Shown in pieces: positions 4,541-54,501 of a stretch of DNA of 57,112 bases. This stretch comes from an uncultured Acetobacteraceae bacterium (GTDB lineage Bacteria; Pseudomonadota; Alphaproteobacteria; Acetobacterales; Acetobacteraceae), in NCBI GenBank assembly GCA_903918315.1, contig CAIXEA010000062.1:1-57112 (forward strand). The letters run 5' to 3'. The notes beneath the pieces were generated by a model. It had not been told where the DNA came from, searched no databases, and saw nothing but the letters and a program-made list of their open reading frames with translations. A program made the position numbers and the translations under genes. How positions within the stretch are numbered: the first letter of the stretch is position 1; each line of letters opens with the position of its first letter.

Positions 4541-4772
4541 GTCATCCTCGGGCTTATCCCTACCGCGTCCACACATCGCGGAAACGATTTTCGTCTGTCG
4601 TGCTCTCTATCGTCATGGCCCGGCTTGTCCTGGCCACCTATCGCGGCACGGTGCGGTGGGGGTGGCCCGGACAAGCCGGGCCATGACGGTGGGAGAAAAT
4701 ACCGTTGTCCTCACCTGCCAGATTTTCGTTTCCGCGATCTATGAATCCGTTAGGGCTTATCCGGAGGATGAC
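4541..4772. repeat. nested inverted repeats between convergent genes
   Basis: This covers most of the 312-bp gap between the GMC gene and the convergent LLM gene; I see no coding signal in it. The outer pair is GTCATCCTC at 4541-4549 with GAGGATGAC at 4764-4772. Inside is a long hairpin: arms 4612-4638 and 4661-4687 are complementary at 26 of 27 positions (mismatch at 4631) around a 22-base loop. Such GTCATGGCCCGG...-type palindromes are common intergenic repeats in alphaproteobacteria. Here it could act as a two-way transcription terminator, but no T-tract follows either side. Confidence 0.7.
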
Positions 4773-26935: not shown

Positions 26936-28189
26936 ATGCATGTCGTCGTCATCGGTGCCGGCATCGTCGGCGCCGCCTGCGCGCTCGAACTGCTCCGCGA
27001 CGGTCATCGGGTGACAATCGTGGAGCCGGGCGAGCCCGGCGGCGAGCAGGCGGCGAGCTATGGCAACGGCACGCTGCTCAACCCGAGTTCGATCATTCCG
27101 ATGTCATCGCCCGGCATCTGGAAGAAAGTGCCCGCATATCTGTCCGACCCGCTCGGCCCCCTCGCCATCCGCTGGTCATACCTGCCCAGGGTTCTGCCCT
27201 GGCTGCGCCGCTTCCTGAGCGCCGGATCCACGCCCGACAAGGTGGGGGCCATCGGCAAGGCGCTACGCCCCCTGCTGCTCAATGCCCCCGACCGCCACCG
27301 CGCGCTCGCGCAGGAAGCGGGTGTCGGCCATCTCATCACCCAACAGGGCGTGCTCTTCGCCTTCCCTGATCGCGCCGCCTTCGAAGCCGAAGCCCTGGCG
27401 TGGAAGGTCCGCCACGATAACGGCGTGCGATGGCTGGAACTGAACGAGGATGAGCTGCGCCAGCGCGAACCCGCCCTGGACCGCCATTACACCTTCGCTT
27501 TGCTGGTCGAGGAAAACGGCCAGTGCCGCGACCCCGGCGCCTATGTCGCCGCGCTCATCGCGCATGCGACCGCGCAGGGTGCCGTGCTGCGGCGGACCCG
27601 CGCCACCGGTTTCCGGATCGAGCAAAAGCAGCTTCGGTCGGTGACCACCAATGGCGATGAAATCCCCTGTGATCGCGCGGTCATCGCGGCCGGTGCCTGG
27701 TCCAAGGTCCTGGCGCGGGAGGCCGGCGATGTCGTGCCCCTGGAGACCGAGCGCGGCTACCACATCGTGATCGAGAACCCCGGCATCGAGCCGCGCTACC
27801 CCGTGATGCCCAGCGACGGCAAGATGGGCTGCGCGATGACCCCGCAAGGGCTGCGGCTCGGCGGCCAGGTCGAATTGGCGGGGTTGGACGCCGAACCCAA
27901 CTGGAAACGGGCCGACGTCCTGCTGCGGTTCGCCCGCAAGGTCTATCCCGCGATCCCCGAGGGGCTGTCGACGGACAACGTCAAGGTCTGGATGGGTCAT
28001 CGGCCGTCCATGCCCGATGGGCTGCCATGCCTCGGCCCGGCATCGGGCTGCCCCGATGTCATCCACGCCTTTGGCCATGGCCATGTCGGGCTGACGGCCG
28101 GCGCGACGACCGGTCTGCTGGTGGCGGATATCGTCAGCGGGCGCAGGCCGCGGATCGACCTCACACCTTATGCCGCGACGCGGTTTTAG
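26936..28189 (+). CDS. DadA-like FAD-dependent amino-acid oxidoreductase
   Basis: 417 residues. N-terminal FAD fold VVVIGAGIVGAACALELL, then a DAO-family core with ETERGYHIVIENP and a C-terminal GHGHVGLTAGATTG. It resembles D-amino-acid dehydrogenases (DadA), which strip amino groups at the membrane and pass electrons to quinone. It starts one base after the binding-protein stop, so the two are co-translated; together they look like uptake and oxidation of an amino acid. The TAG stop lies inside a palindrome (28186-28229). Confidence 0.88.
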   Translation: MHVVVIGAGIVGAACALELLRDGHRVTIVEPGEPGGEQAASYGNGTLLNPSSIIPMSSPGIWKKVPAYLSDPLGPLAIRWSYLPRVLPWLRRFLSAGSTPDKVGAIGKALRPLLLNAPDRHRALAQEAGVGHLITQQGVLFAFPDRAAFEAEALAWKVRHDNGVRWLELNEDELRQREPALDRHYTFALLVEENGQCRDPGAYVAALIAHATAQGAVLRRTRATGFRIEQKQLRSVTTNGDEIPCDRAVIAAGAWSKVLAREAGDVVPLETERGYHIVIENPGIEPRYPVMPSDGKMGCAMTPQGLRLGGQVELAGLDAEPNWKRADVLLRFARKVYPAIPEGLSTDNVKVWMGHRPSMPDGLPCLGPASGCPDVIHAFGHGHVGLTAGATTGLLVADIVSGRRPRIDLTPYAATRF

Positions 28190-28229
28190 AGCATGTCCGG
28201 TGCTTTCAGGCGCACCTGACAAGCTCTAA
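28186..28229. repeat. TTAGAGC palindrome overlapping a stop codon
   Basis: Arms 28186-28203 and 28212-28229 match at 16 of 18 positions around an 8-base loop, with TTAGAGC...GCTCTAA ends. The left arm contains the TAG stop of the DadA-like gene. It is the first of two adjacent palindromes that separate convergent genes (the other is 28244-28289) and could be a terminator. Confidence 0.65.
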
Positions 28230-28243
28230 CCGATTGTTTGATC

Positions 28244-28289
28244 GCGTGATTCACGGCTCCGGTGATTCCACCTCCGCCGATCACGCTCT
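28244..28289. repeat. solitary copy of the 46-bp structured palindrome
   Basis: Outer stem GCGTGAT (28244-28250) with ATCACGC (28280-28286), a second stem CGGC/GCCG, an inner TCC/TCC internal loop, and GGTG-ATTC-CACC at the tip. It is the same element as the four tandem copies at 53634-53845. It lies between the convergent DadA-like and recQ genes. Confidence 0.8.
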
Positions 28290-28295
28290 AGCGAT

Positions 28296-30125
28296 CTAAC
28301 CCGCTTCCCCCGCGACGACAGCCAGTACCGCGTCGCCATACCGCTCCAGTTTCGATGCACCCACGCCCTTGATCTGGCCCAGCTCGTCCAGGTCCTCGGG
28401 GCGAACCGCGGCGATGTCACGCAGGACGGTGTCGTGGAAGATGACATAGGGCGGCACGGATTGCGTTTTGGCCTCCGCGGCGCGCCAGGCGCGCAAGGCT
28501 TCAAACAGGCCAGCCGCCGCGGACCCAGCGGGAGGGGCATCCGGGATGACCCGGCGGCGGTCGGGCCTGGCGGCCGGCTTGCGGGGTGCGTCCTGCCGCA
28601 GCATGACCCGCACCTCCCCGCGCAGGATGGGGCGCGCCTCCTCCTGCACCAGGAACAGTCCGCCATGCCCGGCGGTGTCCACATCCAGCGCGCGGATGGC
28701 GACCAGCTGGCGAATCAGGCCGCGCCAGTAGGGTACGCCGTGCTCCGCGCCGATGCCGAAGGTGGGAATGCGGTCGTGACCATGGCGCAGCACGGCTTCG
28801 GTCTTCTCGCCCCGCAGCACGGCGATGATGTGCAGGGCCCCGAACAGCTGATGGGTGCGGTAGACAGCCGAAAGCACCTTTTGGGCATCCACCGTGGCAT
28901 CGGCGGTGCTGGGCGGCGCATCGCAGTTATCGCAATGGCCGCAATCAGCGGTCAGCCCCTCCCCGAAACAGGCCAGCAGACTGCGGGTGCGGCAGGTCAC
29001 GGCCTCCGTCAGGGCGATGATCTCCTCCAGCTTGATCCGCATGACCCGTTTCTGAGTTTCCGGCGCCGAGGATTGGCCCAGCCAGTGCCGCGCCTGCGCA
29101 ATGTCCTGCCCGCCATAGAGCAGCAAGGTCTTCGACGGATCTCCATCGCGTCCGGCCCGGCCGATTTGCTGATAATAGGCTTCCGGTGAGTCGGGCATAT
29201 CGAGATGAACGACAAAGCGCACATCCGGACGGTCGATGCCCATGCCGAAGGCGATGGTGGCGACGATCACCACCGGCTCCCCGGAGCGAAAGCGGGTCAG
29301 GGATTCGCGCTTATGCTGGGGATCCAGACCGGCATGGAAGGCGATGGCGGGGAAGCCCTTTTCCACCAGCCGCGCGGCCATCCGCTCGGTCTTGGCGCGG
29401 CTGCCGCAATAGACGATGCCACATTGCCCCTTGTGGCTGGCGAGGAAGGCCAGCAACTGCGCCGACTCGCCCACCTTGGGTTCGGCCGCGATATGCAGAT
29501 TGGCCCGGTGAAAACTGTCCAGAAAGACCTGGGCGTCCTGCATGCCCAATGCGGCCAGGATATCACTGCGGGTGCGGGTGTCAGCGGTTGCCGTCAGGGC
29601 AATCCGCGGCACGCCGGGAAAGCGCTCCGGCAGCAAGGCCAGACCCCGATATTCGGGCCTGAATTCATGCCCCCATTGCGACACGCAATGCGCCTCATCG
29701 ATGGCGAACAACGCGATCGGCAGCCTGGCCAGGCGGTCGATCGTCCCATTGCTCAACAGCCGCTCCGGCGAGACGTACAGAAGATCGAGCGTCCCTTCGA
29801 CCATGTCGCGATAGACCGACCGGGCTTCCGCCGGGTCCAACTCCGAATGCAGCGCCCCGGCATTGACGCCGACCTGGCGCAGCGCCGCCACCTGATCATC
29901 CATCAGCGCGATCAGGGGGGACACGATCACGGCCATGCCTGGCCGGCACAGGGCCGGAACCTGATAGCAAATGCTCTTGCCGCCGCCCGTTGGCATCAGC
30001 ACCAGCGCATCGCCACCGGCGATCACATGGCGCACGACGTCTTCCTGCTGGCCGCGGAAACCGGGGAAGCCGAACACGCGGCGCAAGGCCTCGTTTGGGT
30101 CTTCGAGCTGTCGCGTTTGCAGCAT
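28296..30125 (-). CDS. recQ: ATP-dependent DNA helicase RecQ
   Basis: 609 residues. Walker A TGGGKS (46-51), DEAH box (143-146), the RecQ-specific FRPEY loop, motif VI QQIGRAGRDG, a zinc-binding CGHCDNC region, an RQC domain and a C-terminal HRDC domain (PPYVIFHDTVLRDIA, about 545 onward). It unwinds DNA 3' to 5' in recombination and repair, typically with RecF-pathway proteins. It is a single gene, convergent with the DadA-like gene across two palindromes. Confidence 0.97.
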   Translation of the reverse strand: MLQTRQLEDPNEALRRVFGFPGFRGQQEDVVRHVIAGGDALVLMPTGGGKSICYQVPALCRPGMAVIVSPLIALMDDQVAALRQVGVNAGALHSELDPAEARSVYRDMVEGTLDLLYVSPERLLSNGTIDRLARLPIALFAIDEAHCVSQWGHEFRPEYRGLALLPERFPGVPRIALTATADTRTRSDILAALGMQDAQVFLDSFHRANLHIAAEPKVGESAQLLAFLASHKGQCGIVYCGSRAKTERMAARLVEKGFPAIAFHAGLDPQHKRESLTRFRSGEPVVIVATIAFGMGIDRPDVRFVVHLDMPDSPEAYYQQIGRAGRDGDPSKTLLLYGGQDIAQARHWLGQSSAPETQKRVMRIKLEEIIALTEAVTCRTRSLLACFGEGLTADCGHCDNCDAPPSTADATVDAQKVLSAVYRTHQLFGALHIIAVLRGEKTEAVLRHGHDRIPTFGIGAEHGVPYWRGLIRQLVAIRALDVDTAGHGGLFLVQEEARPILRGEVRVMLRQDAPRKPAARPDRRRVIPDAPPAGSAAAGLFEALRAWRAAEAKTQSVPPYVIFHDTVLRDIAAVRPEDLDELGQIKGVGASKLERYGDAVLAVVAGEAG

Positions 30126-53323: not shown

Positions 53324-53626
53324 ATGGGGGCTCCTGTGACCACCAGCCGTCTTATCAACCGTAACGTCGTTGCCCAGCGCGGCCGCACCAGCATGCGGCT
53401 CGAGCCTGAATTATGGGACGCGCTGATGGAAATCAGCGACCGGGAGGGCAAGGACATGAGCACGCTTGTCCGCCGGATTGAAGCGACCGATCACCCGGGC
53501 GGGCGGACCAGCGCGGTGCGGGTCTTCGTGCTGGCCTATTTCCGCTCCGCCGCGACCGAGGATGGCCATGCGGCGGTACGCCACGGCATGCGTTCGGCGG
53601 ACCGGGTGACGAAAGCGGCCGCTTAG
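53324..53626 (+). CDS. ribbon-helix-helix domain protein
   Basis: 100 residues from ATG 53324, or 96 from GTG 53336 (MTTSRLINRNVV). The core RGRTSMRLEPELWDALMEIS with REGKDMSTLVRRIE fits the RHH_4 type (PF13467-like) found across alphaproteobacteria. It is a likely DNA-binding protein whose target is unknown. It is followed after 7 bases by the tandem repeat array. Confidence 0.8.
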   Translation: MGAPVTTSRLINRNVVAQRGRTSMRLEPELWDALMEISDREGKDMSTLVRRIEATDHPGGRTSAVRVFVLAYFRSAATEDGHAAVRHGMRSADRVTKAAA

Positions 53627-53633
53627 AACACCA

Positions 53634-53845
53634 ATCGCGGGATTCAGACCTCCGGTGAGTCCACCTCCGGTCATCCCGCTCTTGTGTGATCGCGGGATTC
53701 AGACCTCCGGTGAGTCCACCTCCGGTCATCCCGCTCTTGTCTGATCGCGGGACTCAGACCTCCGGTGAGTCCACCTCCGGTCATCCCGCTCTTGTCTGAT
53801 CGCGGGACTCAGACCTCCGGTGAGTCCACCTCCGGTCATCCCGCT
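53634..53845. repeat. four tandem 55-bp units of a structured palindrome
   Basis: Units start at 53634, 53689, 53744 and 53799 with an exact 55-bp period; the last breaks off after 53845. Each holds a 46-bp element: outer stem GCGGGAT/ATCCCGC, a TCA bulge, a GACC/GGTC stem, an internal TCC/TCC loop and a GGTG-AGTC-CACC tip, then a 12-base linker. Units 3 and 4 have C for T at the last base of the left outer arm. The array lies between the convergent RHH and DUF2889 genes. A lone copy is at 28244-28289. Confidence 0.95.
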
Positions 53846-53874: not shown

Positions 53875-54501
53875 TCAGTCGGCCGCCTGCTGTTCCGCGT
53901 CGGGGCCGGTGTACAGATGCGGCCAGCGGCGCTGCACAAGCGGGCCGGCGTCACTATAGGCGACGCAGGTGTTCAGGATCTTCGGCGGTCCGCCCATTTT
54001 TTCGGTAATGCGCGCATCGACGGCGTCGCTGCCTGGCTTGGGCTCCGTGCCCTCCGCGCGCATCTCTTTGCGCACCCGCGACGGGCTGATGGTCTGGAAG
54101 GCGGTGGTCGCCATCTGCTGCAGGAGTTCACGCAGATGGGTGCAGCCCACCGTGCCCCCCACGGCCTGGTTGGCATCACGCAGGAAGCCGCCCTTGATCG
54201 TCATGCCGACCAGGCGGGAGAAATTGGGGGCGGCTGTCGGGCACATGCGGTAGGGGGTCAGGTCGCTGACCGCCTCACTTCCCACGATCTGCATCGTCTC
54301 ACTGACCGTCAGCCGCAGCCACATGTCATGAATGGGCTCCCCGGCGGCAATGAGGCCACGGTCATAGTTGGTCTGAGAGAAGCTCTTGACGTCCGTCAGG
54401 TGGGCTTCGATGTCGTACAATCCATCGGTCCGGCGATAGCCGTTGATCTCGATCGAACGCGTATGCTGCCTTTCGCGTTCGGCGGGCGCGCTCAACGGCA
54501 T
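53875..54501 (-). CDS. DUF2889 domain protein
   Basis: 208 residues. The DUF2889 pattern is clear: RSIEINGYRRTDGLYDIEAH, AAGEPIHDMWLRLTVSE, GCTHLRELLQQMATTAFQT. AGGAG lies 7 bases before ATG 54501. Function of the family is unknown. It is downstream of the broken mtrB/pioB-type gene, separated by a hairpin. Confidence 0.87.
   Translation of the reverse strand: MPLSAPAERERQHTRSIEINGYRRTDGLYDIEAHLTDVKSFSQTNYDRGLIAAGEPIHDMWLRLTVSETMQIVGSEAVSDLTPYRMCPTAAPNFSRLVGMTIKGGFLRDANQAVGGTVGCTHLRELLQQMATTAFQTISPSRVRKEMRAEGTEPKPGSDAVDARITEKMGGPPKILNTCVAYSDAGPLVQRRWPHLYTGPDAEQQAAD

Follow-up and report, generated by a model that had tools for sequence, protein, structure and literature searches.

Introduction

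RIME of Sinorhizobium is an intergenic palindrome mosaic found in alphaproteobacteria, and the source paper for the CIR repeats of Caulobacter is said to be that of Chen and Shapiro from 2003. As described in two publications, CIR are ~110 bp long, consist of two arms and a linker, carry GANTC at or in one terminal loop, end in TA and lie between genes (PMC2229807; PMC10969869). Bru-RS of Brucella are repeats of 103–105 bp, according to PMC2267715. RUP, Correia/NEMIS and ERIC measure ~100–155 bp, have TA ends, duplicate their target and encode no protein of their own, and the movement of RUP is ascribed to IS630-Spn1 (both from PMC2229807).

Here, a stretch of 57,112 nucleotides from an uncultured Acetobacteraceae bacterium (the window) was analysed together with the draft genome to which it belongs and with related genomes. 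The original prediction had pointed to a structured palindromic repeat, present as an array and as one distant copy. Copy number, architecture, covariation, YTA/TAR ends and stop-codon positions were computed, and no RAYT gene was found in 15 carrier genomes. The repeat is probably a non-autonomous, two-hairpin, TA-flanked mobile element of the CIR/Bru-RS/RIME kind. This class of repeat is already known from related bacteria; what the present analysis adds is covariation across the family, the structure of the full composite, the insertion site at YTAR and stop codons, and evidence that the fold counts in spreading rather than in resident copies.

Results

Copies of the repeat in the window

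The window contains one complete composite element (28187–28290, plus strand), consisting of TA, 100 nt and TA (TA at 28187–28188 and 28289–28290). It comprises hairpin A, the more variable arm (28187–28228, plus strand), with 17-nt arms and an 8-nt loop, the linker ACCGATTGTTTGATC joining both hairpins (28229–28243, plus strand), and hairpin B of subfamily I (28244–28286, plus strand), a 15-bp hairpin with a bulge and an internal loop. By sequence, hairpin B carries one GANTC site in stem 1/bulge (28248–28252, plus strand) and a second in the tip loop (28264–28268, plus strand). What had been taken for a lone copy is the right half of this composite, whose second hairpin had been overlooked. 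Upstream, a gene for an FAD-dependent oxidoreductase (PF01266; 26936–28189, plus strand) ends in a TAG stop made of the element's 5' TA and first G, and a gene for a RecQ-type helicase (DEAD, Helicase_C, RQC and HRDC domains; 28296–30125, minus strand) converges on the element.

The array (53634–53845) has four units with a 55-bp period and 98% match. All units are plus-strand hairpins B of subfamily II (53637–53679, 53692–53734, 53747–53789 and 53802–53844), the last two with the change T7C. At the left edge (TAGAACACC...), the upstream RHH_4 gene ends with a TAG stop (53624–53626, plus strand), and TAGAACACC is possibly a decayed TAGAGC end. A DUF2889 gene (53875–54501, minus strand) converges on the array, so that both sites in the window sit in convergent gaps (FAD oxidoreductase/RecQ and RHH_4/DUF2889).

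The comparison on which the original prediction was built could be reproduced in full. Unit 1 (53637–53682) and the lone copy (28244–28289) differ at 9 of 46 positions (4, 11, 12, 13, 23, 34, 35, 36 and 40), eight of which form four jointly changed pairs (4/40 GC-TA, 11/36 GC-CG, 12/35 AT-GC and 13/34 CG-GC), with the ninth, position 23, in the tip loop. Position 7 is uncompensated in units 3 and 4, and unit 4 additionally differs at positions 45 and 46 at the outer edge. The free N of the two GANTC sites falls at positions 7 and 23, so that T7C and the change at position 23 preserve GANTC. Unit 1 and the lone copy adopt one common 15-bp hairpin on both strands, with z-scores of −3.4 to −4.0 relative to shuffled sequences, and the tip sequence occurs five times in the window with at most 3 mismatches, vs 0.12 expected.

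A scan of the window against Rfam returned no family at curated thresholds. Below them, RF02600 (BASRCI27, Brucella sRNA CI27) gave a minus-strand alignment that spans hairpin A, the linker and hairpin B, with AAACAA of the linker (minus strand) inside it. The match had an E-value of 1.1e-4 for the window copy (28.2 bits) and 1e-6 for a further locus, L001 (43.2 bits), short of the gathering score of 59.8 bits. Such sub-threshold matches were obtained in 5 of 7 loci scanned; the array of subfamily II gave no match to BASRCI27.

Copy number, distribution and architecture

With a covariance model built from 23 copies, at least 150 matches at E ≤ 1 were obtained in the 5.04-Mb draft genome, where 150 of 5418 candidates were scored. 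The analysis covered 146 of these 150 places, the others being C241, C174:17142, C178 and C181:2960. A tip-only pattern, blind to the outer stems, gave 125 matches (at most 3 mismatches) in the same genome, vs 4 for the reversed control. Among 23 other genomes of the genus, 14 matched at E ≤ 0.01, with 4 to at least 146 matches each; 143 candidates were scored per genome, and counts near that number are lower bounds. The remaining nine congeners had no match at E ≤ 0.01 among their 143 scored candidates. In other families, one of 16 genomes contained a single weak match (E 0.007). Named records with the tip sequence, among the matches listed (at least 96 stretches), came mostly from Acetobacteraceae and Rhodospirillales by title, and gene flanks of the own genome align to some of them at about 65–82%. 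Five listed stretches from unrelated groups (L136, L138, L139, L180 and L184) gave no model match, and their tip matches look like chance. No match at E ≤ 0.01 was found when the composite was compared with plasmids. Draft contigs C19, C23, C31, C83, C112, C166, C197 and C241 begin or end in or near copies, as expected if the repeat breaks assembly.

Classification of 118 sites with a simple gene caller placed 58 in convergent gaps, 37 in co-directional gaps (19 on the same and 18 on the opposite strand) and 2 in divergent gaps, with 3 inside called genes and 18 at locus edges. For comparison, the gaps that lack an element in the window and in 80 loci of the own genome numbered 19 convergent, 143 co-directional and 35 divergent.

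The full form has the order TA, hairpin A, linker, hairpin B, TA and spans about 104 nt. Composites were counted as clean if they began at a YTAR and finished at a TAR, which left 28 of the 146 copies (nine failed at the 3' TAR). The spacing between the two TA starts is exactly 102 nt in 24 of these 28, and 86, 94, 103 and 113 nt in the others. A recognizable hairpin A with a YTAR end is lacking in 109 of the 146 copies. Subfamily II has its own hairpin A elsewhere in the genome (e.g. C95:32429), and in the window it forms a tandem array of B units; other tandem arrays are present among the genome copies.

Several copies depart from this plan. L019 1486–1540 (= C74:57800) is a chimeric, mispaired hairpin with a left arm of subfamily I and a right arm of subfamily II, which indicates recombination between copies. 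Shortened hairpins of ~40 nt (C188:26573, C119:32834 and 32874, C22:88318 and C56:5329) seem to have lost the sequence between short direct repeats that lie within the hairpin. At L181 5220–5407, hairpin B occurs with ~38 extra nt and a nested tip hairpin, in two tandem copies.

Target site and stop codons

Ends were counted in subfamily I composites for which both ends could be located. Among these 32 composites, GAGC has a TA in front of it in 26, and GCTC is followed by TA in 28. All 22 with TA at both ends read YTA...TAR, with Y and R freely combined (7 CTA..TAA, 6 CTA..TAG, 6 TTA..TAG and 3 TTA..TAA), a pattern that fits insertion at YTAR with duplication of the TA. Target-site duplication is indicated by these ends and by one clean empty gap with one TA: the gap of the relative G001 orthologous to that of the lone copy reads GGTTTTAGGCCC, lacks the element and has a single TTTTAG. 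The upstream gene stops at the stop codon of G001 in G009 and G015, and one codon later in G003 and G045. For C93, the same codon is a TAA stop in the relative L152, which is element-free at that place and has an element of its own ~50 nt further on. Five further pairs of this type were compared, of which one had a different gene end and the rest were uninformative. From the one clean empty site and the one matching stop, we infer that insertion itself probably took place. In G009, the gap corresponding to that of the lone copy (L228) is occupied, directly after the stop TAA, by another sequence that has inverted ends (TAAATTTGTATC...GGTACAAATCA) and possibly belongs to a further repeat family.

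Positions relative to stop codons were determined with a simple codon-usage gene caller. In 23 of the 28 clean composites, the TAG stop of a neighbour consists of TA and the first base of the element, in 4 of them for both neighbours. At YTAR 3' ends, a stop is formed for 36 of 58 facing genes in the own genome and for 21 of 44 in named records, where genes were called with the codon usage of the own genome; 70 of 146 own and 48 of 126 named-record matches lacked a 3' YTAR and were dropped from this count. Non-coding YTAR sites lie at stops in 18% (own genome) and 24% (named records) of cases. Genes ending elsewhere within the element are almost absent (0 of 58 own, 1 of 44 in named records), so the pattern is not one of random truncation.

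In a first control, 33 of 147 non-coding YTAR sites were at stops, vs 23 of 28 composites. In a stricter control with element-free convergent gaps, stops made up 7 of 10 YTAR sites in own loci, or 29 of 48 once named records were included, and the excess among convergent composites, 12 of 14 of which form stops, was not significant. Among co-directional composites, 9 of 11 form stops, vs 15 of 48 or 61 of 198, a significant excess; sites near the start of the next gene may not be tolerated. Active targeting of stop codons, the first reading of these data, is not supported by the stricter control: in convergent gaps, the scarcity of other YTAR sites is enough to explain the positions. Nonetheless, a stop-seeking element can be entertained as a tentative possibility: an enzyme of neither RAYT nor IS630 type would recognize the folded arms and insert at the TA of TAA or TAG. 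If this were so, the first G of the element would restore TAG, and the repeat could spread in a genome rich in GC while leaving proteins at their full and proper length. In the literature searched, which consisted mostly of papers outside subscription, no report of stop-codon insertion of such repeats was found. The stop-codon position offers a simple account of how repeats collect at the 3' ends of genes and yields a base-exact prediction for empty sites.

Covariation and the level at which selection acts

Within the genome, the four pairs identified in the window vary almost only jointly and correspond to the difference between subfamilies I and II; because this is a single subfamily split, they are not four independent tests. 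Covariation was therefore evaluated in 50 representatives from the own and related genomes, more than 4 of 43 positions apart, in a structure-free alignment of 55 columns. The relatives' copies were drawn from 80 stretches hand-picked from listings, and the representatives are biased in having been retrieved by a pairing-aware covariance model or by a tip-fixing pattern. The statistics bear out the predicted covariation, with 91.2% of 750 cells paired, vs 78.5% after shuffling and 30–50% with slid partners, and two-sided changes in 96 cells, vs 33.3 (shuffled) and 12–16 (slid). The five covariation measures were reached by 0, 3, 0, 0 and 0 of 500 shuffles, and the observed values exceed every slid control on four of them; the exception is the number of pairs with a two-sided change, which is 10, whereas one slid version reaches 12. 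Relatives show the same pairs in new combinations and additional varying pairs. The pair at model columns 11/47 is TA, GC or CG in related genomes; other examples are GCGCGAT...ATCGCGC in G003, GCGTTAT...ATAACGC in G014 and, in G018 as well as G044, tips of the form GGCG...CGCC. Across the family, the fold is thus constrained, as originally proposed; the further claim that selection acts on the fold rather than on the sequence is too strong, because the bulge with its GANTC is conserved as sequence (109 of 118 full-length copies).

Changes private to single copies give a different picture. Pair counts used the 118 copies with a length of exactly 55 nt; 113 of these could be placed in a subfamily, and the chimera L019 was left out. 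In hairpin B of subfamily I (59 copies), private changes comprise 21 broken pairs, 9 GU pairs and no compensated pair. In that of subfamily II (53 copies), 30 single and 1 double broken pairs, 14 GU pairs and 2 compensated cells were found, both of the latter in one copy, C42:36833. Counting on unique sequences gave the same result. The original prediction had named pair-breaking differences in other copies as evidence against it, and private changes do mostly break pairs, while the family-wide covariation holds.

To place changes on lineages, a FastTree tree of 160 unique cores was used, which is weak, given 43-nt sequences and recombining copies. Of the changes that start from a paired state, two-sided ones that keep the pair make up 7 of 37 on internal vs 3 of 131 on terminal branches (Fisher p 0.001; 9 internal and 8 terminal repairs of broken pairs are outside this comparison), and single pair losses number 20 internal and 93 terminal. 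Branches changed on both sides numbered 15, a count that only equals the highest of 500 null draws (mean 7.3). The internal-branch excess of kept pairs assigns compensation to lineages that spread. Since compensation is seen between lineages while resident copies have broken pairs, the pattern points to the step of spreading. We infer that the fold is needed when the repeat spreads rather than in every copy once resident, and that copies drift after insertion.

A cis-acting RNA hairpin at mRNA 3' ends, serving as a terminator or 3'-end stabilizer and selected site by site, would account for the strong placement at 3' ends and in convergent gaps, would suit a fold that is stable on both strands and has a sub-threshold Rfam relative, BASRCI27, listed as an sRNA. 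It is nevertheless unlikely, in view of the freely broken pairs among private changes and of the nine of 23 congeners without a match (143 candidates scored per genome). Convergent placement follows from YTAR insertion plus tolerance, and the co-directional sites show no strand preference (19 vs 18), which disfavours a strand-specific RNA role.

Paired changes could also arise without selection, if one arm were corrected from the other with the hairpin as template. Single-copy two-sided changes of the kind expected do occur in hairpin A, which has a long, nearly perfect stem (C74:45710, C83:12535, C45 and C149, the change in C149 recurring in the divergent copy C19:116). Hairpin B, however, has none in 59 copies of subfamily I and only two cells in 1 of 53 copies of subfamily II. 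For hairpin A form Ia the excess lacks significance, being reached in 484 of 2000 shuffles, and form Ib (2 of 2000) comprises 12 copies, with 2 of 3 changes in one very divergent copy, which leaves templated correction improbable. A rough Poisson estimate for paired changes in hairpin A depended on a guessed expectation and was given no weight.

GANTC sites and a predicted methylase

The genome encodes a predicted methylase of 379 aa (L363) with the domains N6_N4_Mtase (PF01555, E 1.8e-64) and RAMA (E 7.1e-17), a pair that we take to be the mark of CcrM; among 14 control genomes, RAMA was detected in Caulobacter alone. It is conceivable that the repeat is a landmark for methylation by CcrM, the fold exposing GANTC to the cell-cycle methylase and selection keeping the sites. 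The density of sites agrees with this idea: among 146 copies, 97 have two GANTC and 2 have three, vs a background of 0.093 per 55 nt in the window, and both T7C and the change at position 23 keep the motif. Yet 41 copies have one site only and 6 have none, and the tip GANTC, kept in 98 of 118 full-length own copies, is lacking in all 11 copies read in G044 and in 13 of the 14 read in G018. In subfamily II, the fixed columns of the tip GANTC change at a rate of 0.078, vs 0.111 across all unpaired core columns, where subfamilies were picked by columns 16–20, which are hence unchanged by construction. RAMA is present in 13 of 15 carriers (those without it, G005 and G016, are incomplete drafts), yet also in 7 of 9 congeners without repeat matches. 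A landmark function is thus quite improbable.

Search for a mobilizing enzyme

The domains Y1_Tnp, DDE_3, DDE_Tnp_1 and DUF4096 were sought in the own genome (G000). The linked RAYT gene suggested as a lead did not turn up: Y1_Tnp was not found in the own genome or in 14 other carriers of the genus. Overall, 5 of 33 genomes of the genus were positive for Y1_Tnp and 0 of 15 carriers, some of which are incomplete drafts, with control genomes positive; no GTAG or CGTC tag was seen by eye at the foot of the own and relatives' hairpins. That the repeat is a REP element whose mobility depends on a linked RAYT, as its palindromic, intergenic, high-copy, mosaic and tandem nature might suggest, is highly improbable given these results. 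DDE_3/IS630 was not found in the own genome.

An IS1182-family element (L334 133–1644, on C214) with GAGCCTGTCCGAGAAT ends lies at the CTAG end of a hairpin B copy, and its ends have GAGCCTGTCCG in common with one form of hairpin A; a role as mobilizer is not supported, as it had no match at E ≤ 1e-20 in the heavy carriers G003 and G015. IS5-like DUF4096 loci are likewise unsupported, no matching inverted ends being seen.

Separately, the window contains at 4613–4690 an inverted pair of CGTC-like REP palindromes (CGTCATGGCCCGG...CCGGGCCATGACG), apparently within a larger inverted repeat, for which Rfam gave only matches below the curated score. PMC3733652 states that CGTC repeats are missing from Acetobacteraceae.

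Discussion

According to the mobile-repeat reading favoured here, the element would insert at YTAR and duplicate the TA. It would thereby come to lie chiefly where genes end, in many cases within the stop codon itself, with TA and the first G of the element making up TAG. An enzyme acting in trans may recognize the folded arms as a hairpin or as cruciform DNA, so that well-paired lineages would multiply. Inserted copies would then drift, and some may become shorter, fuse with others or, like the array, undergo tandem amplification. The pattern bears on how the two-armed alphaproteobacterial repeats move and on what their GANTC and fold are for, questions that the review PMC2229807 (section 7, on CIR) leaves open.

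Among known systems, the GTAG and CGTC REPs described in PMC3733652 are likewise palindromic, intergenic and of high copy number, whereas the present repeat has no such tag and no RAYT was found in 15 carriers. RUP, Correia/NEMIS and ERIC form one stem-loop by end-to-end pairing, whereas the present repeat has two arms; the DDE_3 domain of the IS630 type, to which RUP mobilization is ascribed, was not found in the own genome. The likeness to RIME is drawn from its description. For Bru-RS, the link is the sub-threshold alignment to BASRCI27, which, in our view, is presumably itself a Bru-RS copy.

The resemblance to the CIR of Caulobacter, as described, extends to every feature compared. Both have two arms and a linker within ~110 bp (here, 24 of 28 clean composites with a TA spacing of 102 nt), GANTC at or in a terminal loop of one arm (98 of 118 here, mostly lost in G044 and G018), TA termini (26 of 32 at the 5' and 28 of 32 at the 3' end), an intergenic location (3 of 118 sites inside called genes, 18 at locus edges) and a host with a CcrM-type methylase, for which L363 is the predicted candidate here. 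The features described for the present repeat that set it apart from CIR are the tandem amplification of a single arm, the presence of another GANTC within the bulge, and the location at stop codons.
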